Origin: Prosthecobacter debontii | GTDB lineage: Bacteria > Verrucomicrobiota > Verrucomicrobiia > Verrucomicrobiales > Verrucomicrobiaceae | NCBI RefSeq assembly: GCF_900167535.1 | Contig: NZ_FUYE01000008.1 | Span: 62,001-126,000 of the forward strand | Length of the DNA stretch: 64,000 nucleotides | Direction: 5' to 3' | Part shown: in pieces, positions 1-26,163 of the stretch | How positions within the stretch are numbered: position 1 is the stretch's first letter | How the letters are laid out: every line of letters starts with the position of its first letter | Notes under the pieces: generated by a model | What the model saw: the letters and a program-made list of their open reading frames with translations, nothing else | What the model was told of the DNA's origin: nothing | Databases searched by the model: none | Program-made: the position numbers and the translations under genes

Positions 1-3000
1 TGAGGATGCCGTTGGCATTCATGGTGATCCCGCCCAAGGTGGTGCTGTAACCGCCTAAATCCAAGGTTCCTCCTTCAAAGGCAATGTCCGCTCCGCTCGG
101 CAAAGCATTTGCAAGCCCATAACGCAAAGTGCCTCCAGCCAAGCTGGTCACACCGCTGTAATCTATAGCGGAATTCAAGGTGAGGATACCTTCTCCTGCT
201 TTCCTAAAGCCGCCAGTCCCACCATTACCGATGCTATTGGCGAAAATGAGATCATGCCCGGCCGTATCCAAGGTGCCACCACCTGACAGCATTGTGATCG
301 TGCGTGTCGAAAGATCATCCCCTGAATAGGTCGCTCCTAACCGAAGAGTCCCACCTGCAAATAACAAGCGTCCACTGTCACCGCCCATGTGGTCCAAATC
401 CCCGATTTCCAAGATCCCTTCGTTGAGGGCAACATCACTGATCGCCGTGTTATTGCCACTGAGCACCAGTGCACCTGGCCCCGATTTGGTCAGTTTGGCT
501 CCGGCCGTCACCAACGGAGACTGAATGCTGGCTGAACTTCCCATCACATGGAACACATACTCTCCAGCGGTCGCACTAACTTCGATCCCAGCGAATCCAC
601 TGATGATCGAACTGCCTGTGCCGCTGAATAAGAAACCTCCACTTTGAACTGTCAGATTGCCTGTATCAGCCCCTGTGAGGTTGACCTCACTGCTCCCTGT
701 CGCCACAAGAAGTGAACGAATGGCCTTCGATCCACTGGCTGCGACAATCGATTGGCTTAGCAAGACGTTTTCAGAGCTGCTCGTGATTCCCCATGAGGTA
801 GCATCGCTGACATTGGCATATTCAGTTGCTAAGTTAAGTGGACGCCAAGCGGCATTCGCAGCTCCTGTCGTGGTCAGAAAGGTATCCGAAGCGGCAACAC
901 CTCCTGAGGAGGAGCCGATCGCCCAAGGAATCACTGGCAAACTGGTGCCTGTGCCAGAGCCATAGGCTCCCACAAAGACGGATCCCGATTGGAATTGTCC
1001 CCGAGGATTAGCGGTATTCTGAGTAGCGGTTCCACGCAGAACCATGGTTGCTTGATTTTCACGGCTGACACTAGCTGCGCGCAAAGCAGCTAAAGCGCTG
1101 GTTCCCGTTGATGAAGTTTCCACACGAATCGAACTGACGCCCGAGCCGAAGGTTACTTGGCCAATCAATTCCGTATAACCACCGTTCTGATCATGGCGTA
1201 AAAACAGGGAATCGGTCGTCGAACCGCCACTGTTCAACACGAAGCTGACATTGTCTGCAATGCGCCCGGGCGTAGAACTGATCAGGCTAATGCCATTATG
1301 CTCAATGAACAGGCTCCCCCCGTTACTGATATTGACCGTCATTCCATCAGCGAGCTGGGTGAGCTGATTGTTGTTGCCATTGATATCTAAAGTTAATCGA
1401 CCACCAATGATATTGAGAGCTCCCTCTGATCCAAGATCGATCAATCCATCCGTGACTGTTAAAGCGCCAGCTCCAATCTTCGTCAAGATGGCCGAGCTGC
1501 CATCCGAACTGATATTGCCGAAGTAGTTGCCGGAAGCCGTTTGATTGATCGTCAACTCCTGCCCCCCGGCAATTTTGATCTCCATGTTCTTATAATTCGT
1601 CGAACTGCCTCCCGACAAAGATCCGATGACCTCGGAATCCATGACTTCAAGAGTTGTTCCGGAAGGATCGAGGATGACCGCACCATAATCGCCAATGGCA
1701 CCACCACCTTGAAGACGCACCGTGCCTCCAGCTAAACGCAGGGTTCCATTGGAATTATTCGTTAGGCCATCGATGACCATCAGCCCAGTGCCAGCCTTGG
1801 TCATATTCATGTTCCCAGAGATGCGTGATCCGATGGTGAGAGTCGCAGCACCGTCGTGTGTCACGATCCATTCATTGGCGATGCTGCTTGTAATGAGCCC
1901 CCCAGTGATGGCCAAATTGCCCGAACTTACATTACTGGTGATTAACAGCCCTCCACTGGCAACATCGAAAATATCATTGGCTCCGATGTTGATCGTGGCG
2001 GTTCCTACGGCCGCATCGAAACGCAGACTGTTGATACTCACACTGCCCGTAAGGGCCCCTGTAAAACCGGTGCTGTCCGTAACGTCCGCTCCTGTCGCCC
2101 AGGAACTGACATCATTCATGATCGTGCTATTGAAGCCGACAATCTCACCGCCACTGATCGTAGCAAACAAAGTCGATCCGCTTCCCATTTGGTAAGTGGC
2201 CCACCCTCCTAAAATCGTGCTGGTTCCATTGGTGGCCGAAGTCAGAAAATGAGCGTCAGACGAAGAAGGATTGAAGCGCAAAGTGCTGCCCACATTGCGT
2301 GTGATGGTGCCCACCTGCAGTGAGGTCTGTGCGCCTACCGTGTTTATCCGCACCACAGCAGCAGTTGGGTCCGCTGCTGCGCCCAGGATCATATTGCCAA
2401 CATTCACACTGATAGGGGTAACGCCATTTCCGTCGATTTCTAAAGTGCCTCCGGTCATGGTCAGCCCACCGTTGCCGATCTTGGCATTCACATTCGAGGA
2501 GTAATCCAAAAGCAAAACACCATTATTGATCGTGGTCAGTCCTGCACCAGCTACCGTATTGGTTCCAGAAAGAGTCACCGTATTCGGTGAATGCTTAGCC
2601 ATCGTCACCCCAGAACCAAAGGTGATGTTTCCAGAGATATCTCCGTTGTAGAGCACCAAGGAAGCACCTGTGTCCAAATTCAGATTTCCTGATATGACAC
2701 CGGCACTGGAATAAAGACCACCATCGTCGGCGCTGACAGTTCCGCCTAATGTCGTGGTTCCAATCGTGGTGACATTGGCTGAAACGGAACCGTTACGCAC
2801 GTTCAGCGTCGTGACCGAAAACGAACCGCCCCCAACACTATCAATCATGGAGCCGGCAAGATCAGGGACAGTCTGAGGGTTGGGGCTCAGACGTCCGACG
2901 ATAATATCCGTGGCTGCAGAGCCCGTGGTTCCAAAAATATCCAGCACACCACCTCCGCTAGTCTCTCCCGAAATTTGAAGATCATCCATGTCTTTTGACA

Positions 3001-6000
3001 AAGCGCCATTCACGGCAAGACGAAGTGTGCCCGAACGGATGAACAAGTCATCCCCAGTGTGTGCATTCACGGCATTCAGAATAAGCAGTCCCTCATTGAC
3101 GAACAAATCATCCACAATTGTAGGGGCCGCATCGAGCCTCCAAGTTCCGGTGCCAAGCTTCGTCAAATCCGCTGTCGTGCCAGTCTGTGTGAGCACACCG
3201 CTCAACACACCGTAACCACTGCCATCCAGATTCAACGTAGAACCGGCCGCATCCACAGCACCGCTGAAGGTGATCACGGCGTCGTCTGTCCCCGAAGCAT
3301 CCAGTGTTCCTGTGCCCGTCAACGTAATCGCACGGTTAGTGCTTTGATTGACATTGCCCACAAACTGCAATCTCCCGCTCCCCAAAGTCAATCCATTCGT
3401 CCCCTGCCCCAGATTGCTTGCTGCACCACCATTGTTGCTCACGGTGCTGAATTGCAGAGTCCCTGCGGAGACCGTGATGGCTCCTGTAAAAGTATTGGCC
3501 GCAGTGAGTTGCAGGATACCATTGCCCGTTTTGGTTAAGCCGCCGGAACTGCTGAGCACGCCCGAAAGCACCGCTTTATCAGTCGCCAACGCCACATTAT
3601 CGACCACCGAAACCGTTCTCGTCCCACCGTTCAGATCAATATCATGCGTGAAAGTGACGATGCTATCCGCGCTGGTAGAGCCAAAAATAAGAGGAGCACC
3701 ATCTGCTACAAAAAGGGCAGTTGAGCCCCAAACGAGAGGCACGGGTGCGCCTGAAAGGGTGACGACGAGGTCTCCCCCCGCCGCCGCAAAACCGCCGCCG
3801 CCTGAACCGCTCCATTGCACTTGGTTATCCCCTGTTCCCAAACTGCGACTGAAGGTTCCTGCAGCTTGATAGACACCGCCACTGAGCACCAAATTATTGT
3901 CCAAGGCACCGAGCCCTAAAATGGCACCGCCACTCAACTGATAAGAGCCTGTAAAGTTGTTGTTGGAAATCCCCCTGATATCAAGATTGCCAGCCCCTGT
4001 TTTATTGAATACACCGCTGCCATTCAGATTGGCAATCGACCACGCCATATCCACGTCTTGATTGACATTATCGGCGATATTCACCGTGATACCCGCATTG
4101 CCAAGATTCAAAGTGCCCAGACCGGAGATGGTGGACGTCAAAGTCGTGGTTCCCGAAAAGGTAATGGCCGTTGGGGAAAGCGTCAGACCACTTGCAACTT
4201 CGATCAAAGCCGTGGTGTTAGCCACATTCCCCATCGTCAGGGTCCCGACCGATTGATCAACACTTTGGATGAATAAGGAGCCTGCATTGACCGTGAGATT
4301 GCCTGACCCAAGCTTTCCACTTCCTGTCAGCAACAGCGTTCCATTGACGTTGTTGAGCGTCGTATTGCCGCCCGTCGTATTGGCACCAGCGAGAGTCAGA
4401 GTGCCATTCCCTGTGTAGGATAAGTTGAGCCCAAATGCGGTCGTCGATGTGATATTGCCATTGACGAAGGTGTCCCCTGCACCGGTTAATGTCCATGTGC
4501 GAGCGGCCGTGATCGCATCCGCAGTCACATTGGCAAAAGTCAGCATTTTACCATCACTTATGTTATTGGTGGTTGAACTCGGGTTACTTGAAGTCGCCCC
4601 CAACACGTAGTCGCTGACGATCTCGATGCTGTAATCACCAATAAAAGCGACCCCCGTATTGTTACTCTGAGTCACGCTATTGGTGATCACACGATCTGCG
4701 CCATAGGCAAAAACATTGCCGTTGCTGAGCACCAAGGTGCCCGCCCCAAGAGCACCGTCACCGCCGATGCCCAAGGCACCGGCACTCACGGTGGTATTGC
4801 CTGAATAATCATTGGAGCCCGTCAAAATCCAAGTGGCACCGCCATCAATCGTGATGCTCAAGGCACCGCCATTATCACGAAGATCGCTAGTGATCATGTT
4901 GCCCATGGTGTTCGAACCCCGAAGCGCCAATGTCTTTGCCCCCCCGACCATGTTATTGACCACATTGCTAAGCACGAGAGGACCTGAGCCATCGGCATGA
5001 ATCTGCTGAGTTCCCGTCGTGGCATTGAGACGGATCATTCGGTCGGAGACCTCCCCTGGCCCGATGTATTGAAGAATCGCCGCACCTGTGGTTGCGTTCC
5101 CTAAAGTGACAGCCCCTGTCGTTGTCGCCGCATTTGTGGTGCTGCCAACGCTAGATGGTCCGGCAATCAGACTCGATCCCAGTGAATTGACAACCAAGGT
5201 GCCCGCCGTGACCGAAGTCACACCGTTATAGGTGTTTTCACCGACCAACTGTAAAGTTCCATTGCCTGTTTTTGTTAGACCTGCGGTTCCCGTGCTATTG
5301 CTGATCACGCCACTGATGGTGGCAAAATCGGTGAATGTACTGCTATTGTCATTCACGACAATGGTCCGTGAGGCCCCATTCAGATTGATCGCATTTCTAA
5401 ATTCGACCTCGGCTAAGGCGTTGGCGGAATTCAACACCAGCGAAGCACCGGTTTTGACAAAGCCATTCAAATTCCAACTCAGCGCGGTCGGGCTCGCCTC
5501 ACCACCAATCGCCACCACAAGTTTATCAGTCGAGGCTGCAAAACCGGCCCCACCCGTCGTAAGCGCAGTGTTCCAGGAAACAGTATCACTCCCCGCACTT
5601 GCAACGGCGGCTAGACGCCGAGTAAAGACACCACTGCTTTGAAACACGGCTGTTGTTGATGTGGTGCCACCAAGGATCAGTCCGCTATTTGTCGGCAACG
5701 ACAAACCGTCTTGAGCTTGCAGAATTCCGTCTTCAATGGTGGTAGTGCCCGTGTAGGTATTGTTGAGGTTGCCTAGAATCCATGTGCCTGCCCCCACCTT
5801 CGAAAAACGCGTGACCGCACCCGCACTGGTGTTATCAACAAGTTGCGGATAGAACCAGTTGTCTGCGGTAGAGGTCCCGCTCAGACGGAATAACTGATTG
5901 GCATTGCCACTGAAGGCAATCGGAGCGACGTTACTGAAAATCAGTGCCGCATTATTGATACCGTTGTTCGTGATGGTTGCGCCAGCAGTCGATGATGTTC

Positions 6001-9000
6001 CAGCAAGGGTAAACAAACGATTGATCGAGACCGAAGCATTGCCTGTGTAGGTGAGCCCACCTGTCGTTCCCCCGAAAATCAGACTGGCGGCATTGGTCGC
6101 CGCATTGGTGGAATCTCCTCGGCCAATGCTGCTGGGCTGGCCAATGTCCGCTAAAAAGGAAACGGTGAGCGATCCTGTCGTGCCATTTCCAGGCGCTCCA
6201 ATGGTCGTGCTACCTGTGTAGTTACTGATGCCAGTGAACGTTTGTCCTGTCGTTGTCCCCATCTTGACGACACTGATGCGACCATTCGTTTCATCAATGG
6301 AACCATTGAATGTGCCGCCATTGCCACTCATGGCAAACACGACAGGATCACTGCTGGAATTCGTCACCGTGCCACTGCCATTGAAGATGCTGATGGATGA
6401 AGTAGTCAAAGTCCGCGCGATGCTCACACCATTCAAGTCCAAGACCGTTCCTTGACGCATGGTCAAATTCACGGAGTCGGCACTCAGCCTTCCCCCCGCT
6501 GCCAATTGGATTGTTCCTTCGAGAAGGTTTGTCGTCCCTGTCTGAGCATTGGTGGCACCAATGACCAAAGTGCCCGCTCCTGTTTTCGTAAGCCCACCCG
6601 TTGTCGAACTCGCTACAGGCGTGTTTAAATATAAAATGTCCGAGGTTTCGTTGACACGAATCGCCAAGGCCCCCACTCCGCCGGAAGTCACCGTCCCGGT
6701 TCCCGAGATGGTCGAGCTACCACCCGTCGCTAAGATACCGCCTATCGTTCCCACACCATCACTGTTGATCGTTAGCAGAGCCGTGACTGACAGCTCTGGG
6801 CTGGTGGTCCCGAGCAGTTTGAGAGAGCGCACACTGGTTGGAGCCGCCACGAGAACATCATCCATGACTTGAACGTGCGCGGCGGCCTCTAGCCCCACTG
6901 TTGCCGTAACAAAACCAACATCCGAATCATAAATCGGCGCTCTTAACGTTGCTGTGCCGAGGGTAGGCACATAGGCGAAGTCAGCTCCGTTGAAATATGC
7001 ATTCCCTGCCAGCAATCCAACGATCGAGACACCGCCTATTGAAATCGAACTGTTTGCATCGACCGCGAAGTTGACGGAGCTCGTTCCTGCCACCGAGCTG
7101 ATTGAGGTAAGGTTCAGAGTTGCAGTTCCCCCCATGCCTGCCATGACACGAATCGTCCCAGCCCCCTGGCTTGCAGAAAAGACTCCCAGGGTTTCCGAGC
7201 TCGCCTCACCATCTGCACCTACATACATCAGGGTGCCTCCAGCAGTGCCAACAGTGGCAGCCGCCTCGCCGAATCCGATGGCGACACCATCGCTCAAAAC
7301 GTCTCTGGATGTGCCTGAAAAGACATCCTGAATTTTCAAAACCCCATTGTTGATGGTGGTCGCTCCGCTGAAGGTGTTGGCTCCAGAAAGAACCCACATA
7401 TTCGATCCGGTCTTTTGCAGACTGGTGGTCCCACTGCCGTCCACGATGGCACCGCGAATTTCATTGGCGGCGCCCACATCGCTCGTTCCGCCCAGCACCA
7501 GGGTCTTACTACCCGCGCCAGTGGCGGTAAAATCATTGTTAAAGATGACTCCAGCACTATTGAGCGATTGGTTCGCCAGAATGGAGACCGTTCCTGTGGT
7601 GCCCGACAGGTTGATGATTTTATTCGTCGTCGTTTGAGAAGCCTCCAGATAGCTACCCATGATAGTCAGGGTAGCTGCGTTTGTCGTCGTGCCTAGATTG
7701 ACGGTGCCTGCATCGTTGTTGATCGAACCAAAATGCGCGATTTCGAGCGTTCCAACATTCAAGTTTGTCACGCCCGTATAATTTGAGGTTTCTCCCAATA
7801 TCCTCAATGTCCCCGCACCCGCTTTGGTCAAAATGTGGTCTGCCCCTGTGGCAAGCACATCCCCAGTCACCACCATCAGAGCCCCCGTTCCCGTCGTAAT
7901 CGTCATGGTCCGGGCCGTCGTGCTCGTATTGTTCCAAAAATCTCCTTGGATGGTCACTGGGCCACTCGTATTGATCGTCAGGCTGTTATTTCCGCCCAAA
8001 CTCCCCCCGACGCTGTCGCCCACGAAGGTCACTCCATAACCATTTCGACTATTGATGGTCAAGGTCCGCGTAGTCGATCCGGCAGTGAGTACTAATGGAG
8101 CTAAGGAAACGCTCTGATTCAGTAGAGATCCCCCCACGTCATGGTCTAAAAATAAAGTCGCATTTGAAGACGTTCCCATGGTTAGGCGGCGGCTGGCAAA
8201 AGAGTCCGGCTCAGCCGTGCGAAGCTCAAGCGTGCCCGCACCGCCACCCAATGTCAGGGCTCCATTCGCAGTGCCGAAACCGAGGCCTGCGCCATTGGAG
8301 GCACGCACCGACCCGGCCGTAACCAAGACCGATCCTGTAAACGACCGGTTGTTGCCTTCCAAAATGAGAGTGCCGCCGCCCAATTTTTCGATGTTGCCCG
8401 AACTCACGATTTCACCCGTCACACGGTACGATCCCACACCAGCAAAGTTCACCGTGCCAAAACGCAATTGCCCGGTGCCACTGGACAGTAAGTCTCCCGA
8501 GATCGTCAGCATTCCCGCTGTCGAATGAATGCCAGTTGCGATATTTGCCTCACCATATTGAATGTCTGTCGTGATCGTATTCGAGCCAATGCTGATCAAG
8601 GCCGAACCACGATCAGAGATAGGACCGTAACCTTGGAGAACGAGTCCACGGGTGAAATCAAGAGAGGACCCATAGGCGCTTTCGAGAACCAAGCTCCCTC
8701 CACCGAAACCACGTGATGCAGACCCAGAAACGACTATCGCCGATGTGTCTGTCCCCAATTGCGCCAAGTCGTTGATGACGAGCGTGCCATTACTGATGGT
8801 GGTTACCCCAGTGTAATCACTCAGGGAATTGTTTAACCTCAAGGTTCCGCCTCCAGTCAGAGAAAGTCCGTTGGTACCCTTGAATTGGGTGTCCAGGGTA
8901 AGCAGACGCCCCATGCCTACCCTGAGCATTCCAGTCTCCAGTTCCAGTGAGCCACCCATGAGGCGATAATCGCCCCCCACACTCAAGCTGCCTCCCAAGC

Positions 9001-9238
9001 TTCCCGTGTTGAGCAGCAAAATCTGCGGATCTGAAACCAAAAAAGGCAAAATCACGTCATTATCGGCGGCGGGCACACCGACACTCCAATTGGCAGGGTT
9101 GTTCCAACTGAAGTCCGTGCCACTTCCCGCGGTCCACACCGTAGCCACGGCTCGGGTCTCCTCTGTAAGGCCGAAGAGAAAGCAAAGTAAACCAGAAGCC
9201 AGAGAAGCACGGAAAAATGGGCACTGATGAGCGCGCAT
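1..9238 (-). CDS. Giant autotransporter-associated beta-strand repeat protein (3' end beyond window)
   Basis: The frame is open from the ATG at 9238 to the left edge, giving at least 3,079 codons; the C-terminus lies outside the window. The N-terminus (MRAHQCPFFRAS, then a hydrophobic stretch and an AVA cleavage-like site near residue 32) reads as a Sec signal peptide. The mature start has the W-x-WNNPANWSVG-type opening common in this family. The rest is Gly/Thr/Asn/Ser-rich with dozens of units of the form LTKTGxGTLxLxGxNTYTGxTTxxxGTL, the autotransporter-associated beta-strand repeat (PATR, TIGR02601/PF12951), which builds a beta-helix. It is probably a secreted or surface adhesin or matrix protein. 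It lies 530 bp downstream of, and parallel to, a paralogue, and shares long blocks with it. I see no Shine-Dalgarno before 9238. The family is certain; the function is inferred. Confidence 0.9.
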   Translation of the reverse strand, partial: MRAHQCPFFRASLASGLLCFLFGLTEETRAVATVWTAGSGTDFSWNNPANWSVGVPAADNDVILPFLVSDPQILLLNTGSLGGSLSVGGDYRLMGGSLELETGMLRVGMGRLLTLDTQFKGTNGLSLTGGGTLRLNNSLSDYTGVTTISNGTLVINDLAQLGTDTSAIVVSGSASRGFGGGSLVLESAYGSSLDFTRGLVLQGYGPISDRGSALISIGSNTITTDIQYGEANIATGIHSTAGMLTISGDLLSSGTGQLRFGTVNFAGVGSYRVTGEIVSSGNIEKLGGGTLILEGNNRSFTGSVLVTAGSVRASNGAGLGFGTANGALTLGGGAGTLELRTAEPDSFASRRLTMGTSSNATLFLDHDVGGSLLNQSVSLAPLVLTAGSTTRTLTINSRNGYGVTFVGDSVGGSLGGNNSLTINTSGPVTIQGDFWNNTSTTARTMTITTGTGALMVVTGDVLATGADHILTKAGAGTLRILGETSNYTGVTNLNVGTLEIAHFGSINNDAGTVNLGTTTNAATLTIMGSYLEASQTTTNKIINLSGTTGTVSILANQSLNSAGVIFNNDFTATGAGSKTLVLGGTSDVGAANEIRGAIVDGSGTTSLQKTGSNMWVLSGANTFSGATTINNGVLKIQDVFSGTSRDVLSDGVAIGFGEAAATVGTAGGTLMYVGADGEASSETLGVFSASQGAGTIRVMAGMGGTATLNLTSISSVAGTSSVNFAVDANSSISIGGVSIVGLLAGNAYFNGADFAYVPTLGTATLRAPIYDSDVGFVTATVGLEAAAHVQVMDDVLVAAPTSVRSLKLLGTTSPELSVTALLTINSDGVGTIGGILATGGSSTISGTGTVTSGGVGALAIRVNETSDILYLNTPVASSTTGGLTKTGAGTLVIGATNAQTGTTNLLEGTIQLAAGGRLSADSVNLTMRQGTVLDLNGVSIARTLTTSSISIFNGSGTVTNSSSDPVVFAMSGNGGTFNGSIDETNGRISVVKMGTTTGQTFTGISNYTGSTTIGAPGNGTTGSLTVSFLADIGQPSSIGRGDSTNAATNAASLIFGGTTGGLTYTGNASVSINRLFTLAGTSSTAGATITNNGINNAALIFSNVAPIAFSGNANQLFRLSGTSTADNWFYPQLVDNTSAGAVTRFSKVGAGTWILGNLNNTYTGTTTIEDGILQAQDGLSLPTNSGLILGGTTSTTAVFQSSGVFTRRLAAVASAGSDTVSWNTALTTGGAGFAASTDKLVVAIGGEASPTALSWNLNGFVKTGASLVLNSANALAEVEFRNAINLNGASRTIVVNDNSSTFTDFATISGVISNSTGTAGLTKTGNGTLQLVGENTYNGVTSVTAGTLVVNSLGSSLIAGPSSVGSTTNAATTTGAVTLGNATTGAAILQYIGPGEVSDRMIRLNATTGTQQIHADGSGPLVLSNVVNNMVGGAKTLALRGSNTMGNMITSDLRDNGGALSITIDGGATWILTGSNDYSGNTTVSAGALGIGGDGALGAGTLVLSNGNVFAYGADRVITNSVTQSNNTGVAFIGDYSIEIVSDYVLGATSSNPSSTTNNISDGKMLTFANVTADAITAARTWTLTGAGDTFVNGNITSTTAFGLNLSYTGNGTLTLAGANTTGGNTTLNNVNGTLLLTGSGKLGSGNLTVNAGSLFIQSVDQSVGTLTMGNVANTTALIEVASGLTLSPTAITFSGTTTLTSTISGLGTLNLGNAGITVNIADNVNQDVDMAWSIANLNGSGVFNKTGAGNLDIRGISNNNFTGSYQLSGGAILGLGALDNNLVLSGGVYQAAGTFSRSLGTGDNQVQWSGSGGGGFAAAGGDLVVTLSGAPVPLVWGSTALFVADGAPLIFGSTSADSIVTFTHDIDLNGGTRTVSVVDNVALATDKAVLSGVLSSSGGLTKTGNGILQLTAANTFTGAITVSAGTLQFSTVSNNGGAASNLGQGTNGLTLGSGRLQFVGNVNQSTNRAITLTGTGTLDASGTDDAVITFSGAVDAAGSTLNLDGSGYGVLSGVLTQTGTTADLTKLGTGTWRLDAAPTIVDDLFVNEGLLILNAVNAHTGDDLFIRSGTLRLAVNGALSKDMDDLQISGETSGGGVLDIFGTTGSAATDIIVGRLSPNPQTVPDLAGSMIDSVGGGSFSVTTLNVRNGSVSANVTTIGTTTLGGTVSADDGGLYSSAGVISGNLNLDTGASLVLYNGDISGNITFGSGVTMAKHSPNTVTLSGTNTVAGAGLTTINNGVLLLDYSSNVNAKIGNGGLTMTGGTLEIDGNGVTPISVNVGNMILGAAADPTAAVVRINTVGAQTSLQVGTITRNVGSTLRFNPSSSDAHFLTSATNGTSTILGGWATYQMGSGSTLFATISGGEIVGFNSTIMNDVSSWATGADVTDSTGFTGALTGSVSINSLRFDAAVGTATINIGANDIFDVASGGLLITSNVSSGNLAITGGLITSSIANEWIVTHDGAATLTIGSRISGNMNMTKAGTGLMVIDGLTNNSNGTLRLAGGTVRLQGGGAIGDYGAVILDPSGTTLEVMDSEVIGSLSGGSSTNYKNMEIKIAGGQELTINQTASGNYFGNISSDGSSAILTKIGAGALTVTDGLIDLGSEGALNIIGGRLTLDINGNNNQLTQLADGMTVNISNGGSLFIEHNGISLISSTPGRIADNVSFVLNSGGSTTDSLFLRHDQNGGYTELIGQVTFGSGVSSIRVETSSTGTSALAALRAASVSRENQATMVLRGTATQNTANPRGQFQSGSVFVGAYGSGTGTSLPVIPWAIGSSSGGVAASDTFLTTTGAANAAWRPLNLATEYANVSDATSWGITSSSENVLLSQSIVAASGSKAIRSLLVATGSSEVNLTGADTGNLTVQSGGFLFSGTGSSIISGFAGIEVSATAGEYVFHVMGSSASIQSPLVTAGAKLTKSGPGALVLSGNNTAISDVALNEGILEIGDLDHMGGDSGRLLFAGGTLRLGATYSGDDLSTRTITMLSGGGTLDTAGHDLIFANSIGNGGTGGFRKAGEGILTLNSAIDYSGVTSLAGGTLRYGLANALPSGADIAFEGGTLDLGGYSTTLGGITMNANGIL
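195..2330 (-). repeat. Long shared module, copy 1 of 3
   Basis: This part of the partial giant gene encodes, in order, a VGTITRNVGSTLRF block, DVSSWATGADVT...INSLRFDA, ITGGLITSS, EVIGSLSGGS, IPWAIGSSSGG, RPLNLATEYA, GFAGIE, and GTLDTAGHDLIFANSIGNGG. The same order occurs at 11390-13570 and 20550-22740 in the neighbouring giant gene. The copies are clearly homologous at protein level but diverged at DNA level. Boundaries were judged by eye and may be off by 50-100 bp. Confidence 0.75.
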
Positions 9239-9240
9239 AG

Positions 9241-9768
9241 CTTTATGGAGGGGGGTTGAAATGCGAATGTCCAAATTTCCAAATTCAGAATTTCGCGGAT
9301 TCCCCGGCTTGTATCCGAAACCTATTTCTGACCTCCAGACTAAATTTTCATCCGAAAAATGCACCAACCAACCATGTAAACCTTACACCTATCACAAAAA
9401 AGCTTCATTGATTCTCAAAAAGCGGCATTGGCGTCCTAAAAAACGCGAATTTTCCGATGCAAGTTCCCTCAATAAATTGGGTCCTCACAGATTCGCAAAA
9501 CCAATAAACAAGGTTTTTCTTATACTATATAAACCAAAACCCCTTGTCCGTTTCGACAAACACGAGCTCAGACAGGGCATTTCTTTTTATTTTAACCGTT
9601 AAAAGACTTTCTGCGAGCAAACGTCGGGATATCTGCCGAAATCTGTCAACGGCCACCCTTGCAATCCACAACCTTTTTTAAAAGCCGCTTTTCTTCCCTA
9701 GAAAGCAAAACACCCATTCTCCCACCCCAGGGAAAATAGGTGTATCACGAAGGGATTTGAACCAAGAA
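9241..9768. other. Intergenic region between the two giant genes
   Basis: No convincing gene is present. The left two thirds are AT-rich. On the minus strand there is a possible -10 element (TATAGT/TATAAG within 9519-9532) for the downstream giant gene, but no good -35 at the right distance, and it lies about 290 bp from the start codon. Just upstream is a small inverted repeat TTGTC-6-GACAA (9544-9559) that could be an operator. No clear rho-independent terminator follows the upstream giant gene; the short AAAAG-CCG-CTTTT palindrome near 9680 is too weak. Cotranscription of the two genes therefore cannot be excluded. Confidence 0.4.
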
Positions 9769-12700: not shown

Positions 12701-15700
12701 GTTTTGACAATGCGTCCGTCTCCAGAAATCACCCCTGCATAGGTCGTGGTGGAGATCTGATTGATCGTCAGTGTATTCGATCCCACTGAAACCAGGGCAA
12801 GGTTATTCAAACCGGTAGTCGCTGAACCACCCTGCAAGCTGCCAATGGTCTCGCTGTCTAACAGTTCCAAAGTGCTGAAATGATCATCTGCCAATGTAAC
12901 TACAGAGCGATCTCCAATGGCGTTGCCTCCAGAAACTTGGATCGTGCCATTCTGAAGATTGGTATTGCCACCATAGTGATTGGAGCCGTCCAGAATCAAT
13001 GTGCCTGCCCCGGCTTTGGTCAGAACGGTCGTCCCCGAAAGGTAAGATGAAATACGGAAGCTGCTGCTGGTGCTATCCGTCGTCACGACCAACTCGCCCG
13101 TGCCAGAAATCAGTCGTCCACCAGTGATCACCGTCGGACCTGTCGTGACATTTTCAGTCTGAAGGATACCACCACTGCCAATCGTGAGGTTCCCGATAGA
13201 TTCGATGGTGATGGTCGATCCTGTAGCAGCATCGAAACGCAGGCTGTTAATGTTCGCAACATTTACCGTGCCTGTGAAACCGGCTCCCGCATTGGTCACA
13301 TGATCTCCAGTCAACCAGGTGCTGATATCATTCTTGGCAGCAGCATAAGTCAGAGCCACGATTTTGTTAGCCCCGTCATTGATGGCGAAGTAGGTCCCTG
13401 TGCCATCATTGATGGTGGAGAAGGCCGTGCCTGTGCCCAACAAACCCGTTGTCGCGTTGTTTGTGGTGGTCGTGGTGATGACACCGCCAAGCCCGGTCAC
13501 AAAACGAATCGTTCCTGCACTTGCTGCACGCGTGATCGCTCCCAGGTTGAGAGTGGTCGTGTAGGTGGCCGTGCCATTGACATTGATCTGGTTGGCACCT
13601 CCGTTCGCTAGAGTAAAGCTGGCCACATTCTGGATGGTATGGTCGAGAACACCGCCATTGAGTGTCAGCGTACCACCGCGCATGTCTAAAGCCGCAGCGG
13701 TGCTCAATTTAGAGTTGTTATCGAGGCTGTAGTCCAGAATCAGATTTCCCGAATCAAGGCGGCTGGCCACTGTAGCAGTCAGGCCACTGTTATCCCCTTT
13801 CAGAGTCACATCGCTCATCCCTTGTTTCAGAATGCTTGCCACACCGGCCAGATCAGCTTCGATGCTGCCTCGGAAAAGACGGATACCACTGAGCCAATCA
13901 TTGCCCGTGTAGGTCACCGTCACTGTTCCAGAACCTAAAACAGCCCCCTCGTAGCCATCGGCAATCGAACCGATATCCAGGCGAGGTGTCGTAATGTTAT
14001 AAATATTCGTATTCAGGGTGCCTGTGCCACTCGTGGTGCCATCGGCTAGGAGGATGAAGTCCAAGCCATTCGCATTCGCTGCCCCGTTGATGTCATGGGC
14101 ATTGAGGTTAATGACGGCACCGCCACGAGCATACAGACCGCTGCTTGTTCCACTCGGAGAGGCCGCATTCCAGACCCCTGTGGTGTTCAAATTCAAGACA
14201 GTGCTCGCACCTGTCACAACGATATCATCATTGACTGTCACCACCGTATCTTGAAGCGTCACGGTGCCGTTGTTGATCAAGAAGTCGTCCGCGATACTGG
14301 TAGCCCCTCCTGTAAGTGTCCAGTTTCCTCCCGTGACTGTAATGTCTGCTGTTGCTGTGCCGCTCGCTGGTGGCGCTACAGTGACACCACCGGAGATGAT
14401 GCCCTTGCCCGAACCACCCAACGTCAGTCCAATATTCGCCGTGGTGGTGATGGCCCCTGTATAAGTGATCGAGGCGTCAGAAGTGCCATTCGCAAACAAG
14501 CTGCTGGCAGCCGTCACACTGATCGCACGATTGGTGCTCTGATCAACATTTCCGATGAAGCTTAAAATACCTCCACCCAAAGAAATGCCGTCGCTTCCCT
14601 GACCCAAGTGGCTTGCGGCCCCGCCATTATTACTCACGGTGCTGAACTCCAAAGTGCCCTGAGTAATCGTGATGCCACCGGTGAACGTGTTATTACCCGT
14701 CAAGCGCAGGATTCCTGTTCCTGTTTTGACCAGACTGCCATTACTGATCACACCCGGGAGAATGGCTAAATCAGTGGTAAGCGCTGTGTTATCCACCACT
14801 TGGACGGTGCGGCTGCCTCCATTCAGGTCGATATTGTGAGTGAATGTCACTGCACTATCTGCGGTTACGGAACCGAAAATCAAGGGTGCTCCACTCGGCA
14901 CAAAATTCGTTGTGCTTCCCCACACCAACGGATTCGCAGCACCACTGAGGGTGACCGAAAGATCCGCCCCACGCGCAGAGAAACCACCTCCATTGGCAAG
15001 CCATTGGACTTGATTATTCCCCGTGCCCAAGGCTCGGGTAAAGGAACCACTTCCTTCATAGACACCACCATTGAGAATCAAGTTGGCCGTGATTGCATTG
15101 AGCCCGAGGATCGCACCCGCGTTAATCTGATACCCTGTCGCCGCATAGTTATTGTTGGTGACACCACGGAGATCGAGAGTTCCAGCACCATCCTTGGTGA
15201 ACAATCCACTACCGATCAAGGTGTTCATTTCCCAAGACATGTCGATATCGGCAACAGTGCTATTCGCGATATTCACCGTGATTCCTACAGTGCCTAAGTC
15301 TAAGGTCCCGGCTCCATTGATCACCGAAGTGAGGTTATTGTTGGTGCCACTGTAGGTCACTCCAGTCACGCTGAGCTTACGGCCAGTGCCAATGGTGATC
15401 AGCGAATCTGATCCGGCTGCACCGCCCGCCATTGTCAGCAGGGCCACAGACTGATCCTGGGATGAGCCAATCGTTAGGTCACCCGAATTGACGGTCAGGT
15501 TACCCGTGCCGATCTTACCATTGCTAGCCAGAACCACACTGCCTATTCCGACGTTGATGGTGGTGTTGCCCGTGTAAGTGTTCGTTCCGTTAAGCGTGGT
15601 TAGACCCGTGTTGGTAATCGACAAGCTATTCGCCTGAGTATTGCCATTGCCGTTGGAAATAACGCCATTGATGGTCGTTGCGCCCGTTCCAGCCAAGGTC

Positions 15701-18700
15701 AGTGTTCGAGCACTAGCGGTATCCGTATTGATAGCAACGTTTCCGAGTGTCAACGTGCCACCATTGATACTGCTGGTCAGAGTGCGGCTGCCCCCCGTAA
15801 GACCTGTAACCGTGCCATTGAGCGTCAGGCTTTGGTCACCGGACACCGTCACGGCGGTTAGTGAAACATCGTTAGTTAGTGAGATCCCAGGCATCAACGC
15901 CTGAAGGGTTCCGGCAGTCAACACCAGTTGCCCACTACCGAGACCGCCATTGCTGGCATTGTTAAGTTGCAGAGTGCCCAAAGTCAGGGTGGTTGTGCCT
16001 GTGTAAGTGTTAGCTGCAGCCAGCTCGAGAACACCTGTCCCTGTTTTGTTAATGCCTCCATTCACTCCCGACAACCGCCCACTGAGGACCGTTTTTTCGG
16101 AAGCAGAAGATGGATTATCCACCACCTGAATCGTTCTCACGGCACCGTTCAGGTTGATACTGTGTGGGAAAAACACCGTACTATCCGAAGTGGTTGAACC
16201 GAACAAGAGCTGACCCGTGCTGGACACAAAATTGGCCGTACTGTCCCAAGTCAGAGAGGTCGCAGAACCTCCAAGCAATACTGTAAGATCTCCTCCCCGT
16301 GCAGAGAAGCCGCCATTGGCACCGACAGCCCACTGAACCTGTCCATCACCCGTGCCTAAAGCACTGGTGAATGTGCCGCTGCCTTCATACACACCACCTT
16401 TTAAAACAAGGTTACCAACTCCGAGATTACCAGCAAGAGCTCCCCCAGTGATGGTTGTCGGCCCTGTGTAGGTTTGTGTTCCGGTAAGAGTCAAAGTGCC
16501 CGTTCCTGATTTAGTGACCCCGATTGCGTTGGCACCGCCATTTGTGTTGGCGATATCGCTGTCATAAACAAAGTGGCCATTGGCTGCGTTAGTGGTGTCC
16601 AGAGCAATAGCAGAGCCGTTTTTGAATCCTCCGGTTGCATTCCCAAGACCGAGAAGGGTATCCAACTCAGCAGAAGTAAATTCCCCACTACCCCCCACAT
16701 TGACGCCGAGAGTCGCACCCGATTCGACAACGATGTTCGAAGTGGTCCAGGAGGCCAAATTGTTGTTATACAGAGATGTTAGACGGCTGAGCTGGAGGGT
16801 GCCCGCCAGAACATTGGTCGGCCCCGTGTAGGTATTACCGGCCGACATCAGCAGGATGCCCGCGCCAGTTTTATTGATGCCAAAACCGGTGCCGACGACA
16901 GACCCTAAAGTCAATGTCCCCACACCAGCGCCATTGACGTTATTGACATTAAACGTAGGCGTGCCGACGAGGACGGTATTCCCAAAGGTTAAGTTTGCGA
17001 CTCCAGGAGCGGTGTTACCGTTGCCGTTGATATAGTTCAGCGTGTTGTTGCCGATCACCAGCACCCCCAGGGTTTGGGTGATGTTCGCATTCGATGCCGT
17101 GGTTCTTCCGGTCGAAATGGTCGAGTCTCCAGTCACGACCACGTTATTGGCCAGAATCGCCCCGCTATTGATACGGATATCGAGAGTGCCTGAAGCGAGG
17201 TTGATGAGTGATTTATTCGTCGTCCCCAAGGAGCCTGCGGCTTGCAACCGCAAGGTGCCTCCATTGACAACTACCGTTGTGCTCGCAGCCACGTTAGCAT
17301 CGGTTGTGCTTCCTAGAAGGAGAGTGCCCACTCCGGTTTTCGTGAGGGTCGTTCCGGGAGTTAGATAGAACTGATTCGCATCGTCCAATTGAAGGATGCC
17401 GCTTGCATTGCCTACATCAATCGTGCCGCCGCCAGAACCGATGACAAAACTTTTACCGCTGGCAGCGGTGGGATTCAGCGTGTTTGCGCTGCTCAGGCTG
17501 AAAATGCCTCCATTCTGAAGAGTGTAGGAGTGAGCTCCCGCTGCACCGATCGGGCTATTGGCGTCCGCATTGTTCAGTTGTGATACAGCGACCGACAAGG
17601 TCGAGCCCGCACCATCAATCAACACGTTGCCTGTAAAAGTATTCACACCGGATAGCATGACTGTGCCACCGCCATTGATCGTTAAATTACCTGCACCAGA
17701 GACCACCCCACTGACAGATAGGAGCGATGTCGTATCATCCACCGTCCACGTCTGACTGGTCGATAGAGCGACCGGCACGGAAATAGCCACGTTCGCGGCT
17801 GCACCAGGTTGCATCACAATGCCATCGCTTCCCAGAGTCAATGAGCCCAGACTGCCTGCCGCAATGGTGATGCCAGAGGTGGTCGAAGACAGGAATTTCA
17901 GCCCTTGGATGCTATAGTTGTTATCCAAGGTCGTCGTGATCGGTGAAGCAACCACATTGCTGGCACTAAAGTTCACCACATTGCCAACACCCGGAGTGAA
18001 CCCTGCATCGCCAACACCATTGGCAGCCAAGGACCAGTTCGTATTTCCTCCAGCCAATGTGGCCCAACTGTTATTGACATCTCCGGTCCAATACACATCA
18101 CCACTGGCTGCTGTGCTCAACACATTGAGCGTCACACTGCTACTGGTAGTGGATAAGCTATACATATATCCCCCAGGCAGTGAACCTAGCTGCGGAGTCC
18201 CAGTAATGCTAGCAGCTCCAGTGATGACCTGGTAGGAGCCCAGATCAAATCCACTGCCAGCAATGGCGTCAATGTAGCCACCACCCGCATTGATGATCAA
18301 ATTCCCCCCGTTCAACTGAATCCGGTCTGACGTCGTTCCCAGCTGGAAGCCCAGCGAACCACCGGTCGAAGTCCCACCCAAGATAATGTTGGCATTCAGA
18401 GCCAAGGTCATGGTGCTCCCCACTCCATCAGGATAGAGATTGAAGGAAGCTGAACCCGTTTCACCGACTCTCAGACTCGATGTGTTGGGCAGCACATTGC
18501 TGGCGACCGACAAGGCTCCACCATTCACCACCGTGGCACCGCTGTAGGTTTGCACACCTGTCAGAGTCAAAACACCGTCCCCCGTTTTAGTTAGACCGCC
18601 CGAGACGTTCGCAGTATTCAAGGGTAAAGAGGTGACTGATGCCCCTGTGCCACCACCACCTGAAAGGGTGATCGTGGGCACTGTTCCTGCGGTATACGTT

Positions 18701-21700
18701 CCAGGGTTCGTGATGACGATACCCGTGACAGCACCATTGCTAATCAAAGCATAACCGGCAGCCGGGGTGCCACCTGCCACGACACCTGCTGTGCTAAACA
18801 CAACGGCTGGAGCTCCCACGTAGCCACTGCCACCAGTCACCTGGAGATTGGCCTGAGTGACACCCGTGCCACTCGCCCCTTTCAGCACACTGGAGGAATC
18901 GTTCAGCGTCGTATTGAACCCATTGGTATCCACCGTGAGTCCACCACCGAAAGACGGAGCACCGCTCACGCTGCTATTATCAATCGCTCCAAACAACGTT
19001 GCGGTGTAGGTGATTCCAGCCGTCGAAGCCGGGATCCAGCTTGAAACAGAACCGGTGAATTTCAGAGTGCCTCCCGAGAAAGCCAAATAGGCATTGTTAG
19101 CTCCCGAGGCATTCACACTGCTACTGATGGCTGAACCAACACTCAAAGTGCCTCCAGCCAAGTTGACAAAACCCGTGTTGCCGCTGCCGTTCGTCGTGTT
19201 GTTACCAAACCGGATCGGCTGGGCACCCACCGTCACTGTGCCGCCAGCCAAATTCAGAACACCATAAGTTCCACCAGTCGTCGTCGAATCCATGAAGATG
19301 GCGAAAGGATTGTTAGATCCCGTGTGATCGATAGCACCATTCCCAGCAACGGTGATCTGGCCTAAGCTGTAACCGTTGATAAACCACTCCGCATTCGTGT
19401 GATCGAGGAATCCTGTGCCTCCGACATATACCACGCCGACTGACGAGGTCGCTGTATTGAGAGCACTGCCCAGACTTCCCGAAGCGTTGGTATCCCAGCG
19501 GTTGCTATTTTTGTAAGTTCCTCCTGTCAGATTGAAATACCCATAGGACCCCGCAGCACGAGCCACATATTGAGAGTTACCCGTGCCTGGAGTGACGGTC
19601 ACTGTTCCTGCAGTCTGATTATAAACTGCAACAGCTCCCGAAGCATTTCCCCCTGTTGTCGAAAACAGCGTCATATCACCACTAACATTCACCACTGCAT
19701 TTCCTGCATTGCCACCATAGGCGAGAGTTGATGAGGTCGTATTTCCCGTGATTGAACCGCTGATGTTTAGAACACCTCCGTTGACGACCGTGTTGCCGGT
19801 ATAGGTGTAGTTCCCAGGAATGCTCCAAGTGCTTGCCTCGTTCTTGGTGATACCAAGTGTGGCAATGTTACTACTGAATGAGCCAGCGAAAACGTTGACA
19901 AAACCTGTGGAATCTCCAGCCAACACCAGAGATTTCGAACCCGCTGTTGTGGAGGTAATGGTTCCATTCAGAGTGACGGCGGAGGTGCCATCATTGTCGA
20001 TACCCCCGCCACCTGTCGTTCCGACAAGGTCAAAATTGCGATTAATGGTTCCGCCCGCTCCGGTCACCACCAGCATACCCGTTGTGGTTCCCTGACCAAG
20101 GCGAATAGTGGCATTGTCGCCAGTTTGATTCCCTAAATATCCAGGAACTCCTGCGACAGGAACGGAGGGGATACTCAGGCTTCCGTCCTGAATATGCGTG
20201 TAGCCTGTGTAATTGTTCAGAGCGTTGGTGAGCACCACGGTCTGCCCTGCGGTCTGTTTGATAAAGTTAGCACTCCCAGACAAAATGGAATCCACACGCC
20301 CTTGGTTCGCGATGATCTCACCCGTTACTGTGAGCACACCGCTGCCTGTGATCAAGCTGTCCGCTCCAGAGAGGGTCAGGGTAGGAACTGAAGCATTAAA
20401 CCCAGCTAGGTTCAGCGTGCCACCACCAAGGACAAGCCCCGTATTGGGAATCGCCTGATTCAGACCTAAAACCAATGAGCCGCCATTGATTGTTGTGTTA
20501 CCCGTGTAAGCGGGAGTCGCGTTCAAAGTCAGACTTCCTAATCCCGCCTTGGTCATACCTCCCGTCGTATTGTTACCAAAGACATTGGCCAGCACTACAT
20601 TGTTACCGTTGGTATCAAAAATCCCCCCCCCACTACCGAAATTGATAGTCCGTGTGGAGACGTCAAAGGCACTTCCCGTTGCCCAGCGCAGAGCGCCTCC
20701 AAAGAAGTTAAGATTACCCGAACCCAGCGCACCGAGAGCATTGATCTCGATCGCACCTTCATTGAAATAGGTCCCGCCCGTGTATGAATTGGTTAGGCCG
20801 TTCAAGACCAATGTTCCTGCGCTTGCCTTCGTCAAAGCAGCCCCGGTCGTTGTCAGGGGTGAGCCCAATGTGAACCGGTCGTTCGTCACAAAAACGATGT
20901 ATTCGCTCGTGTTCGTGGTGATGCCAGAAAAGCCTGTCAGGGCCGTATTGTTGGCCGAAGCGCCTGTCGATAATAGAGCACCGGCTGTCAGCATCAAGCT
21001 GTCGGAGGCTGGACCTGTAACGGTCACTGCCGCGCTGGTAGAATCAATCGCAAGTGCGTTGATCGTCCGCGCGCCACTAACGGCGGTCAAACTACCGGTT
21101 GGAGTTGCGGTAAATCGAACATTATTGGTCGATGACGCTGTCATCCCATTATAACCCGCTTGATCGAAGATGTATTCCGCGCCAGCTCCGCTCGCCGTGG
21201 ATAATGGACGGAGGCCATTTGTGGTCCCCGTATTCATGACGAAGGTATTCCCAAGTTCAGTCGTCCCAGGAGTTCCTGATGTACTGTGTCCAATCAGATA
21301 TGGGAAAATGCTAATCGTCGTTGTTGCTGCGGCACCACCACCACCGATGGCTGCCAACGTTCCCGTCGGAGCATTGCTCAGAATCAGTTGTCCGCGTTGT
21401 CCCGAAGAGGCCCCCAGTGAGCGCCCACGCACGAGCGCAGTTGCATTGTTGTCGCGAGTCAGCGGAATGGCGTTGCCCACGGTCAAAGTCCCGACAGCAC
21501 TGCTTCCGCCTGAACCGTTGAGTGTAATGACGTTTTGTCCCGCTCCCAGAGCGATGGTTCCCATCGTGTCTCCACGAGCGCCATTATTACTGGCATTCAA
21601 ATGCAGGCCATTGGTCCCAGCTGTGTTGTTAAGCGTGACCACACCTGTGTTCGCCAATCGATCTTGGCTGCTACTCTGATCCTGTAGATTCTGCAATTCA

Positions 21701-24700
21701 CTGCCATTGACAACAATGTCCAGTGTCCCCAGGCGGCCAACACCGCTACCGCTTAGAACCATCACCCCACCATTGATGATCAATTTACCCGCAAAGGAGA
21801 CCGATGAATTACCATTGTAGGTGAGAGTGCCCGTTCCATTCTTGATGATCGTCGCATTGGCAGGCACTGTAAAGGCCCCCGAATAAGTGGAGTTCGAGAC
21901 TTGATTCAGCGTCAGCACTGAACTGGCTCCAAGCAGCACATTGGCGCTACTCGAAGATCCACCGCCGCTGAGTGCCCCGATGGTTTCAGTCTGCCCAGCT
22001 AACAAACTCAAGGTTGGACTTCCGCCCAGGTTTAGCAATGCGACAGAAGTGCTGTCAGCAATTGATTTTCCTCCCGTCAACTCAATGGTTCCATCCTGGA
22101 TCGTAATCGTTCCGGAAGAAGTATTCACGCCAGTGAGACGAAGCGTTCCCTTCCCTGATTTAGCAATGGTATCCCCTGCAGCAATGGTGGAACTCACGTC
22201 CAAATACTGCGAGCCATCCACGATAAAAATCAAATCTCCACTCAACCCAGATGTCAATCGCCCACCCGTAATGGAACTGATGCCTGTAACATTGCTGGTT
22301 TGCAGAATACCGCCGCTTCCAATAGTCAAAGTTTCACCATTGGCAATGGTAACCGTCGAAGCTCCAGCCGCATTGAAACGCAGCGTATTGAGGCTTAATG
22401 AAGAAGCCAGGGACCCAGTGTAGCCACCCGCATCTGTCGCATTCAGTCCAGCGCTCCACGCATTCACATCATCGCTCACGGTCGAGGTGATGCCCACGAT
22501 ATTTCCCCCGGCTGTATTGGTGGCATTGATGGCAAAATTTGTTCCACTGCTGTCTGTCACGGTCGCAAAAGCCGCGCCTGCACCTAACAAACCTGTAGTT
22601 GCGTTATTCAGCGTTGTCGTGGTGACCCCGTGTGTCGCGCTCTGAATCCCATCGGGAAGATTAAAGCGGACGGTGCCTGCCCCTGCTCCGACAGCTCGGG
22701 TCAAGGCACCCAAGTTGAGAACAATCTCCTGACCGCTACCGGCATTCAGAGTGACCGTCGCGGCGCCACCGGCGGCGAAGGTCGTGCTGGCCACGGTATG
22801 GCTGGAGTTGTCACCCGCGTTACCATTCATAACGAGCTCTCCCCCGAGGAGACTCAGCGCACCCGTTCCCACTTTAACAGCGTTTTCCGCAGTGTAATCA
22901 AGCACCAAAGTCCCTGCGTTCAAAGTCGTCGCGCCGGTCATGGCGATATTATCACCCGTCATCCAAACAGTCCCCAAACCGCCAACCGTGAGTGTCCCGG
23001 TGAAGGTATTGTTGCCGGACAGAAGCATGTTACCATTGCCCGATTTAGTGATGCCTCCGGTCGAAGTGAGAGGCACCGTCACCGTTAGCTCAGGCAAATT
23101 GTTCGGCACCGCGGTGCTGTTATTCACGGCAAAAGTTCTTGTCGCGCTCAGAGCCACCGTCCCAGCCCCAGTGATCATCGATGCCTGGGGATTATTGTTA
23201 TTGTTGACCGTCAGAGTGCCCCCCAACGTCAACACCGATCCAAGGCCTAAAATGATGTTACCTTGGCTAGTCGCAGCCGAACTTGAACCATTGATCGTTA
23301 TCGCGGCCAAGGTTTGTGCCACACCAGGATCGAGCTCAAGGCGAGCTGGTCCAGCAGCATTCGCAATCACCATGGTGCCCGTAGATGAAAGTGCATTGCT
23401 CACGGCGAGACGCAAAATCCCACCATTGACGTTTGTTCCACCTGTCCAAGCGCTGGTTGTGGTATTGGCCAACGTCAAGGTACCTGTTCCCGTCTTGGTC
23501 AAGACGTTGCCAGCCGCACCACCTGCCGCAAAGATACCCGAGAAGGTCGTTGAAGTGTTGTTACCGCCAACAGCCAATGTCTTGGTGCTGGTCCCTGAAT
23601 TGACGATCGTTCCACTCCCGGCGATTGACCCAACAGTCAGTGTTTGGCTGCCTGCCGAAGCCAACATATCGAGGGTGGCTATGGAAGCAATCGTCACAGG
23701 ACTTGATGAGGTGATGCCATTCGCGCCGTTACCCATTTGCAAGGTCCCTTCGACGATGTTGGTCGGCCCGACGTAAGTTCCAGTTGCTGCCAATACCAGC
23801 GTTCCTGGGCCGGTCTTGTTGAATCCTCCTCCCGTGGTGCCTGTAACGGCTCCTGCAAACGTCAATGCCGTCGCCGCATTCGTCACCTCGATGGTCGCCA
23901 TGCCACCGGTCAAAGCAAAGGTGTGGCTACCAGCCGATGTTCCGCTCGCTATCGTTCCCGTGGCACCGGTATATTGCAGCGTCGCTCCATCCCCAATCGT
24001 GACTGCCGTCGCGACACCAGCGCCTAAGCCTCCTGCACCGTTGGCAACCGTGCTAAAACTGAGCGTGCCACCATTGATGAAGATGCCCCCTGTAAATGTA
24101 TTGGTTCCGGTCAAAACCAACTTACCGGTGCCAGCCTTCGTCAGGGTGGAATTACCAATACCATTGGCAATGGCGGCACTGATGGTTAGGGTGCCTGAGC
24201 CGTATTGATGGATCACGAGATCCGAGTTCGTCGCCGTATTGCTTTTCAGAGTTCCCGTGCTGCCGCTAATCGTGTAGTTGTTCGCACCCGTGAACAAGAG
24301 GCCACCACTGGTAAGAACCAAGCCATTGGTGCCGATGGCCAAGCTTTGCCCCGAAGCACCAGCATTGATTTTGAGGGAATTCGTCGTGGAGGTAGGATTG
24401 GTTACCGAAGTGATCTCTCCGACTACGGTAGAGTCGATTCGCGAATTCACCGTATTGGAAGCCGCCATTGTCGATCCCGCCACATCCGTGTAGGTGCTCA
24501 ACCCCACTGTAGCGGTATTGACTCCCGTGTTCGCAGCCCAATTGTAGGCCCCTGCCCCATCTGTAAAGACGACTCGACCGTTCACAGTGGTGGCCGTATT
24601 GAGTGCTTGGTTAAACGTAACTGTCGTGTTCGCTGGAGAAGAAACCAGAAGCGAGCCGCCTGCTGCGCTGGAGGTAATCGTCCCAAGTGCCAACGTTGTG

Positions 24701-25827: not shown

Positions 25828-26163
25828 GGCGAAATACAGAAAAAGCCGAGGGCACTCATTAGGCAAATCGGACGAGAGCATGACTTTTCCCAGACGTGGG
25901 GGGAGCACTGGGGTCAGAGGCAAACACGATTGGCAGAGAAGACACAGGTGGGGTCGGATTTCCGTGTCTTAACCCCTCGATTTGATGAAAGACGCGTCCT
26001 CAAGTAAAGATTTTTCTTCATTCTTCAGCAAAACGTTTATTTTACATATCCAAGGCGTTTATATTCCATTCATTCGGCGTTTATCGCCGCGAAGTGACGA
26101 TCTCTAAACAGCAGAGTCTTGAGCGAGAGAATTGGCTTTTTGGGTGCGTATCCGGGGCACTGT
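25828..26163. other. Divergent intergenic control region
   Basis: This 336-bp region separates the starts of the giant repeat gene (minus) and the ceramidase-like gene (plus). Its right part is AT-rich and holds three evenly spaced CGTTTAT words (annotated separately). Longer readings of both flanking frames into this region exist but add sequence ahead of clear signal peptides, so I treat it as noncoding. Confidence 0.55.
26034..26084 (+). promoter_or_regulatory. Three CGTTTAT direct repeats at 22-bp period
   Basis: CGTTTAT occurs at 26034-26040, 26056-26062 and 26078-26084, exactly 22 bp apart each time, 80-130 bp before the ceramidase-like start and more than 200 bp before the divergent giant gene. 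The half-way positions carry weaker relatives (CATATCC, CATTCAT), so the array can be read as an 11-bp period, the spacing used by PhoB/OmpR-type regulators. The regulator is unknown; the periodicity is directly visible. Confidence 0.5.

Follow-up and report, generated by a model that had tools for sequence, protein, structure and literature searches.

A composite module of about 870 residues in two adjacent giant PATR proteins of a Prosthecobacter-like bacterium

In a 64,000-nucleotide stretch of a 6.29-Mb Prosthecobacter-like (Verrucomicrobiaceae) genome (contig C8:62001-126000, hereafter the window), two adjacent giant open frames on the minus strand, encoding proteins A and B, share a module of ∼870 residues that is real, family-wide and composite, with two long elements (E1 and E2) that are new to Pfam and NCBIfam within the known class of PATR β-helix repeat proteins. 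We think it probable, with some reserve, that the module acts as a β-helix joint or extension block of giant surface fibres anchored by exosortase. An earlier inspection of the letters of the window (the sequence-only reading) had described three copies of a domain of ∼700 residues at 195-2330, 11390-13570 and 20550-22740, duplicated within and between genes. The duplication stands, with two copies each in A and B, which together hold all three segments; the copies number four, and the edges of the three in the window are wider than first given.

9769-25923 (from the first TTG), minus strand: protein B, giant PATR β-helix protein of ∼5,384 residues
2-9382, minus strand: protein A, paralogue of B, continuing left past the window edge; 5,085-residue frame
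20371-23022, minus strand: module copy B1, 884 residues
11218-13839, minus strand: module copy B2, 874 residues, the copy modelled by AlphaFold2
20-2638, minus strand: module copy A1, 873 residues
Contig C8:57511-60111, in protein A: module copy A2, 1.9 to 4.5 kb left of window position 1

Homology, edges and composition of the module

Aligned as proteins, the three segments noted first were homologous from end to end, being colinear over ∼870 residues (2.6 kb) at 34 to 43% identity. Pairwise blastp (residues numbered from the first TTG) matched A 1537-3116 to B 3325-4902 (39% identity, 676 bits) and A 2244-3116 to B 968-1851 (34% identity, 288 bits). The order of the motifs is common to the three, but not every motif is spelled identically: LPWAIG reads IFPYLIG in B1 and VIPWAIG in A1, and the counterpart of FDTxGxNIVLANSIGNGG in A1 is LDTAGHDLIFANSIGNGG. 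Chance and generic PATR noise are ruled out, because the held-out fourth copy scored 604 bits against a profile of the other three, far above its own shuffles (best-domain bits of ≤84 for 30-residue blocks, ≤136 for 60-residue blocks and ≤3 for shuffled residues) and above 29 windows from the non-module parts of A and B (≤47 best-domain bits); scans against the Pfam and NCBIfam libraries agreed. The modules are nevertheless embedded in β-helix repeats, as the sequence-only reading had it, with PATR repeats over the curated cutoffs inside all three copies of the window (PF12951: 52.6, 81.7 and 34.7 bits, cutoff 27; TIGR02601: 34.8 to 83.2 bits, cutoff 19.85) and 150 PATR matches scored in the genome as a whole.

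The edges of the block are defined by single-module proteins of related genomes (∼1,800 to 2,000 residues), whose alignments to A and B span little more than the block and end near its limits (A 2260-3088 to residues 356-1233 and B 4041-4883 to residues 352-1233 of one such protein, L088). Conservation over 46 modules drops right after residue ∼870, the drop on the left side being less sharp.

The module is a composite of two shorter non-PATR elements, each also found without the other, and not a single globular domain. Element E1 has the motif order TR..GTxRF, FA..GNIVA, DVxxW, GFTG, INSLRF, SGGIL, and E2 the order R.N.ATLLVRG, GGGGAAGT, SIxPWAIG, GNSFVTY, RPL..TEY, NVR, INSL, SGAFLFT, EYI..V. 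Scans for these elements, and for a further one named E0, were run in HMMER with --max. The spacing between E1 and E2 was 223 to 261 residues in 27/27 copies, although the pairing is partly built in because the profile of the entire module served to collect them. Among 20 diverse copies of each element, none matched PATR at E 0.01 (0/20 for E1 and 0/20 for E2), none matched Pfam and none exceeded an NCBIfam cutoff, with single weak matches only.

22201-22746, minus strand: E1 of copy B1
20860-21519, minus strand: E2 of copy B1
13060-13575, minus strand: E1 of copy B2 (TR..GTIRF, NDISTW, GFTG, INSLRFDA, SGGILQT)
11740-12375, minus strand: E2 of copy B2 (VRGQNLG, SILPWAIG, GNSFITH, RPLDLSTEY, NNVR, MNSLFID, SGAFLIT, EYIFHV)
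1835-2341, minus strand: E1 of copy A1
515-1120, minus strand: E2 of copy A1
14647-15102 and, as a second copy, 15967-16428, minus strand: E0 in B (QVQW..GFSARGA..LIFGS..IDLNG)
3452-3913 and, as a weaker copy, 5195-5653, minus strand: E0 in A

The N- and C-terminal halves of the module were related to each other by hhalign (99.5% over 373 to 376 columns), with the shared signal confined to the NSL..SGG part and PATR (112.8 versus a shuffled maximum of 88.1). Their fronts (TR..DVxxW versus LPWAIG..EY) did not match (11.9 versus a shuffled maximum of 14.3), and a full internal duplication of one ∼420-residue unit is therefore not claimed; on these profile comparisons the NSL..SGG and PATR core is homologous between the halves, while the fronts are not demonstrably related. 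Beyond the module, E0 (QVQW..GFSARGG..LIFGS..IDLNG..RT) lies upstream of three of the four copies, B1 being without it, A contains a tandem unit of ∼1.54 thousand residues (1657-3195 versus 3202-4701, 36% identity), and a larger stretch is shared between the proteins (A 3130-5083 versus B 3378-5398, 43%). The giant proteins are thus mosaics of recurring long elements. In three other genomes (G010:C73, locus L050, 9938-12886; G008:C80; G012:C139) the module was matched as two overlapping pieces (profile positions 7-720 and 627-858), which suggests that ∼85 profile positions have been duplicated locally within it.

Predicted fold and putative role

AlphaFold2, given an alignment of window sequences and sequences from related loci, modelled copy B2 as almost all β, both as the whole block (predicted local distance difference test [pLDDT] 85.7, predicted TM-score [pTM] 0.85) and as its C-terminal 401 residues (pLDDT 87.2, pTM 0.90). 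By VIA-align the whole model resembled EspP (Z 21.4, 342 residues aligned, root mean square deviation [rmsd] 5.5 Å, model residues 9-610) and the β-helix of 7jvi (Z 19.5, 310 aligned, 4.0 Å, model 241-612), and the C-terminal half again resembled 7jvi (Z 11.2, 237 aligned, 4.4 Å, residues 121-401). The model resembles autotransporter-type β-helices. The sequence-only reading had proposed a structure prediction, with a uniform helix or a profile matching only generic PATR repeats as the outcomes to count against a distinct domain; the model was β-helical but not a uniform helix, and neither outcome came out cleanly.

The best alignments mostly stop at model residue ∼610, whereas leucine-rich repeat-type solenoid and C-half matches start at ∼616 (residue ∼120 of the C-half, just past RPL..EY). 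Because the matches stop and start there, the E2 motifs are predicted to sit at the boundary between successive helical stretches. Many alignments start at model residues 185-241, preceded by DVxxW at ∼190-195. The sequence-only reading had suggested that the conserved aromatic and proline residues may form a cap or binding site in the helix. A cap is plausible for LPWAIG..RPL..EY, predicted to lie at helix ends, on the strength of the alignment limits; the conservation between orthologues described below lends a binding site no support.

12052-12156, minus strand: LPWAIG...RPLDLSTEY stretch of B2, model residues ∼582-616, putative boundary between β-helical stretches

In the role we favor, the module would be a parallel β-helix segment of ∼870 residues in which E1 and E2, a fixed distance apart, would each close one β-helical stretch and open the next, so that the block would serve as a structural joint or extension unit in giant exported PATR proteins. 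Proteins A and B would be exported by a Sec-type signal, fold outside the cytoplasm as long β-helix fibres and be anchored to the cell surface by a PEP-CTERM tail on which exosortase acts. We infer such a surface-held fibre because of a signal-like segment read from the sequence at the N terminus of B (open frame of 5399 residues at 9772-25968, minus strand, with a likely start ATG at 25827), the PEP-CTERM tails, the exosortase genes and the predicted β-helix. Both C termini exceed the TIGR02595 cutoff of 16 bits (A, 30.6 bits; B, 28.2 bits), A also exceeds that of Pfam PF07589 (22.8 bits, cutoff 20.7), and the genome carries two strong exosortase genes (PF09721, 143.6 and 138.4 bits, cutoff 25.7). 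A β-helix rises by ∼4.8 Å per rung of 20 to 30 residues, and B could accordingly form a fibre of roughly 90 to 130 nm.

9772-9843, minus strand: PEP-CTERM sorting signal of B, VPEPSRLLLVMLGLLLVFARRRRR

Several points weigh against this role. Surface display and fibre formation are read from sequence features and a predicted fold, and the position of the joint from the limits of structural matches, not from coordinates. Foldseek alone found no match in the PDB at E < 0.001 (best E 0.03), and PF07589 on B scored 17.4 bits, under its cutoff of 20.7. The most conserved columns of the 46 modules include the W of DVxxW, the P and W of LPWAIG, R-P, E-Y and NVR, joined by the Lys of the LTKxGxGTL rungs, and such residues could equally mark a ligand site.

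The last point leads to a different reading, which we regard as unlikely, in which E1 and E2 would be binding sites (for glycan, cell wall or a neighbouring fibre) on an inert β-helix stalk, with the aromatic, Pro, Arg and Glu-Tyr residues touching the ligand. Polysaccharides are bound or cleaved by many of the β-helix proteins that the model resembles, and in the AlphaFold2 model long parts of E2 are poor in strands and lie outside the regular rungs. However, W, P and Y score high through rarity alone, the rung Lys scores as high as they do, and no carbohydrate-active, catalytic or binding family was matched in the Pfam and NCBIfam scans. Between orthologues, moreover, the block (57 to 65% identity) is conserved like its flanks (58 to 71%), and E1 and E2 no more than neighbouring PATR stretches. 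Special constraint on the module is rejected at this level, and because block and flank identities are equal a structural role is favored over a conserved active site.

Quite unlikely, in our judgment, is a function of E1 and E2 as autochaperone-like folding nuclei, which would seed the β-helix in very long passengers that have no barrel translocator. Their regular spacing, their position where new β-helical stretches start and the absence of an autotransporter β-barrel from the last 700 residues of A and B (where only PATR and PEP-CTERM were found) would suit such a function, but no known autochaperone model matched in sequence, and many PATR proteins of the same genome are without E2 or without both elements. 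It is likewise conceivable, if distinctly improbable, that the two are an unnamed pair of β-helix joint elements by which giant fibres are bent or locked to give an ordered surface coat, with the W, P and E-Y residues of E2 contacting neighbouring fibres.

Distribution and age

In the profile search of Verrucomicrobia the module was strongly matched, mostly at full length, in 43/68 Verrucomicrobiaceae genomes (8/11 genera). These full-length homologues, and the non-PATR nature of E1 and E2, uphold the claim of more than repeat noise, although at ∼870 residues and composite the module is not the ∼700-residue domain proposed. When 387 genomes sampled evenly across the phylum were searched (threshold 1e-40, two candidates scored per genome), it was found in family members only (6 genomes). 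Separate scans of 387 genomes of the phylum, scoring a few candidates in each, found E1 in 25 and E2 in 18 genomes, 19 and 12 of which, respectively, lie outside the family, and comparison of coordinates between the two scans gave no open frame outside the family with both. The Prosthecobacter-like genome itself has E1 alone on contigs C1, C2, C4 and C6 and E2 alone at C4:92015. Because the elements occur separately elsewhere, what is new in the family is, on these scans, the pairing of E1 with E2, while E1 and E2 themselves are probably older. Open frames of 17,232 residues (G168:C2:27514-46002) and 13,713 residues (G056:C25:33064-35337) also had E1 or module matches.

Several module copies each were found in two planctomycete metagenome-assembled genomes (MAGs). 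Both carry PF07596 (DUF1559/SBP_bac_10) genes, which the Prosthecobacter-like genome lacks, and in one of them a PF07596 gene and a module share contig C12; transfer between phyla is therefore likely, with a small chance of MAG binning errors. Module proteins in MAGs that have planctomycete marker genes (L044, L055 and L056) end in a variant PEP-CTERM tail, PEPGSLL..GYRRRKR.

Each of the four copies clusters in the tree with counterparts from other genomes, in pairs or trios that have 100% bootstrap support, so the paralogous copies are old. Ancient duplication, both of the block and of larger units of ∼1.5 thousand residues containing it, would have given longer fibres. Although PATR repeats lie inside the block and larger surrounding stretches were duplicated with it, it is very unlikely that the block is merely a set of recently duplicated ordinary PATR repeats made alike by copying or gene conversion, given paralogues only 34 to 43% identical, the absence of PATR from E1 and E2, the low scores of non-module PATR regions and the tree, which rules out a recent event. 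Adjacent, similar module-bearing genes also occur in seven other genomes (G005, G010, G011, G013, G021, G030 and G034); in another (G004, locus L086) a giant module gene appears as two overlapping open frames (2791-13671 and 13356-18998) that differ in reading frame, through a frameshift or an assembly error.

Relation to known proteins and gene context

Like other PATR (TIGR02601, PF12951) proteins, A and B carry many repeats over the cutoff and are predicted parallel β-helices; unlike them, they contain long elements of fixed order, paired in an 870-residue unit found in one bacterial family and two planctomycete MAGs only. Among the passengers of classical type Va autotransporters (such as EspP, IgA1 protease, Hap and antigen 43), the predicted β-helix aligned with EspP and also, over a bend and with an rmsd of 18 Å, with antigen 43 (Z 14), but A and B end in PEP-CTERM in place of a barrel and reach ∼5,000 to 5,400 residues. 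Their tails and the exosortase genes of the genome liken them to the PEP-CTERM/exosortase surface proteins of Verrucomicrobiota, most PEP-CTERM proteins being far smaller. In the related Akkermansia muciniphila, 9/23 PEP-CTERM proteins were detected by mass spectrometry (PMC4960237). The very long open frames and presumed surface proteins also recall the planctomycete “giant genes” of the literature (PMC5177795). Sequence searches of the PDB returned weak local matches only (to IcsA and a Serratia protease), PHROGs a single weak tail-fibre match, and a viral structure library none with E < 0.001; a literature search found no paper on the elements.

These bacteria have many giant PATR proteins, which are usually annotated just as “beta strand repeat.” Because no family model covers them, the definable elements E1 and E2 offer a handle for classifying them, for choosing constructs for structural work and for tracing spread between Verrucomicrobiota and Planctomycetota, a gain in annotation rather than a surprising mechanism.

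The neighbouring genes (ceramidase-like, hybrid histidine kinase, aspartyl-tRNA synthetase and similar genes, some named from the sequence) were uninformative on the role of A and B. Directly upstream of B, on the opposite strand, lies the ceramidase-like protein (PF04734, 26119-27621), and further to the upstream side the hybrid histidine kinase with GAF, many PAS domains and one receiver domain (29060-33949).

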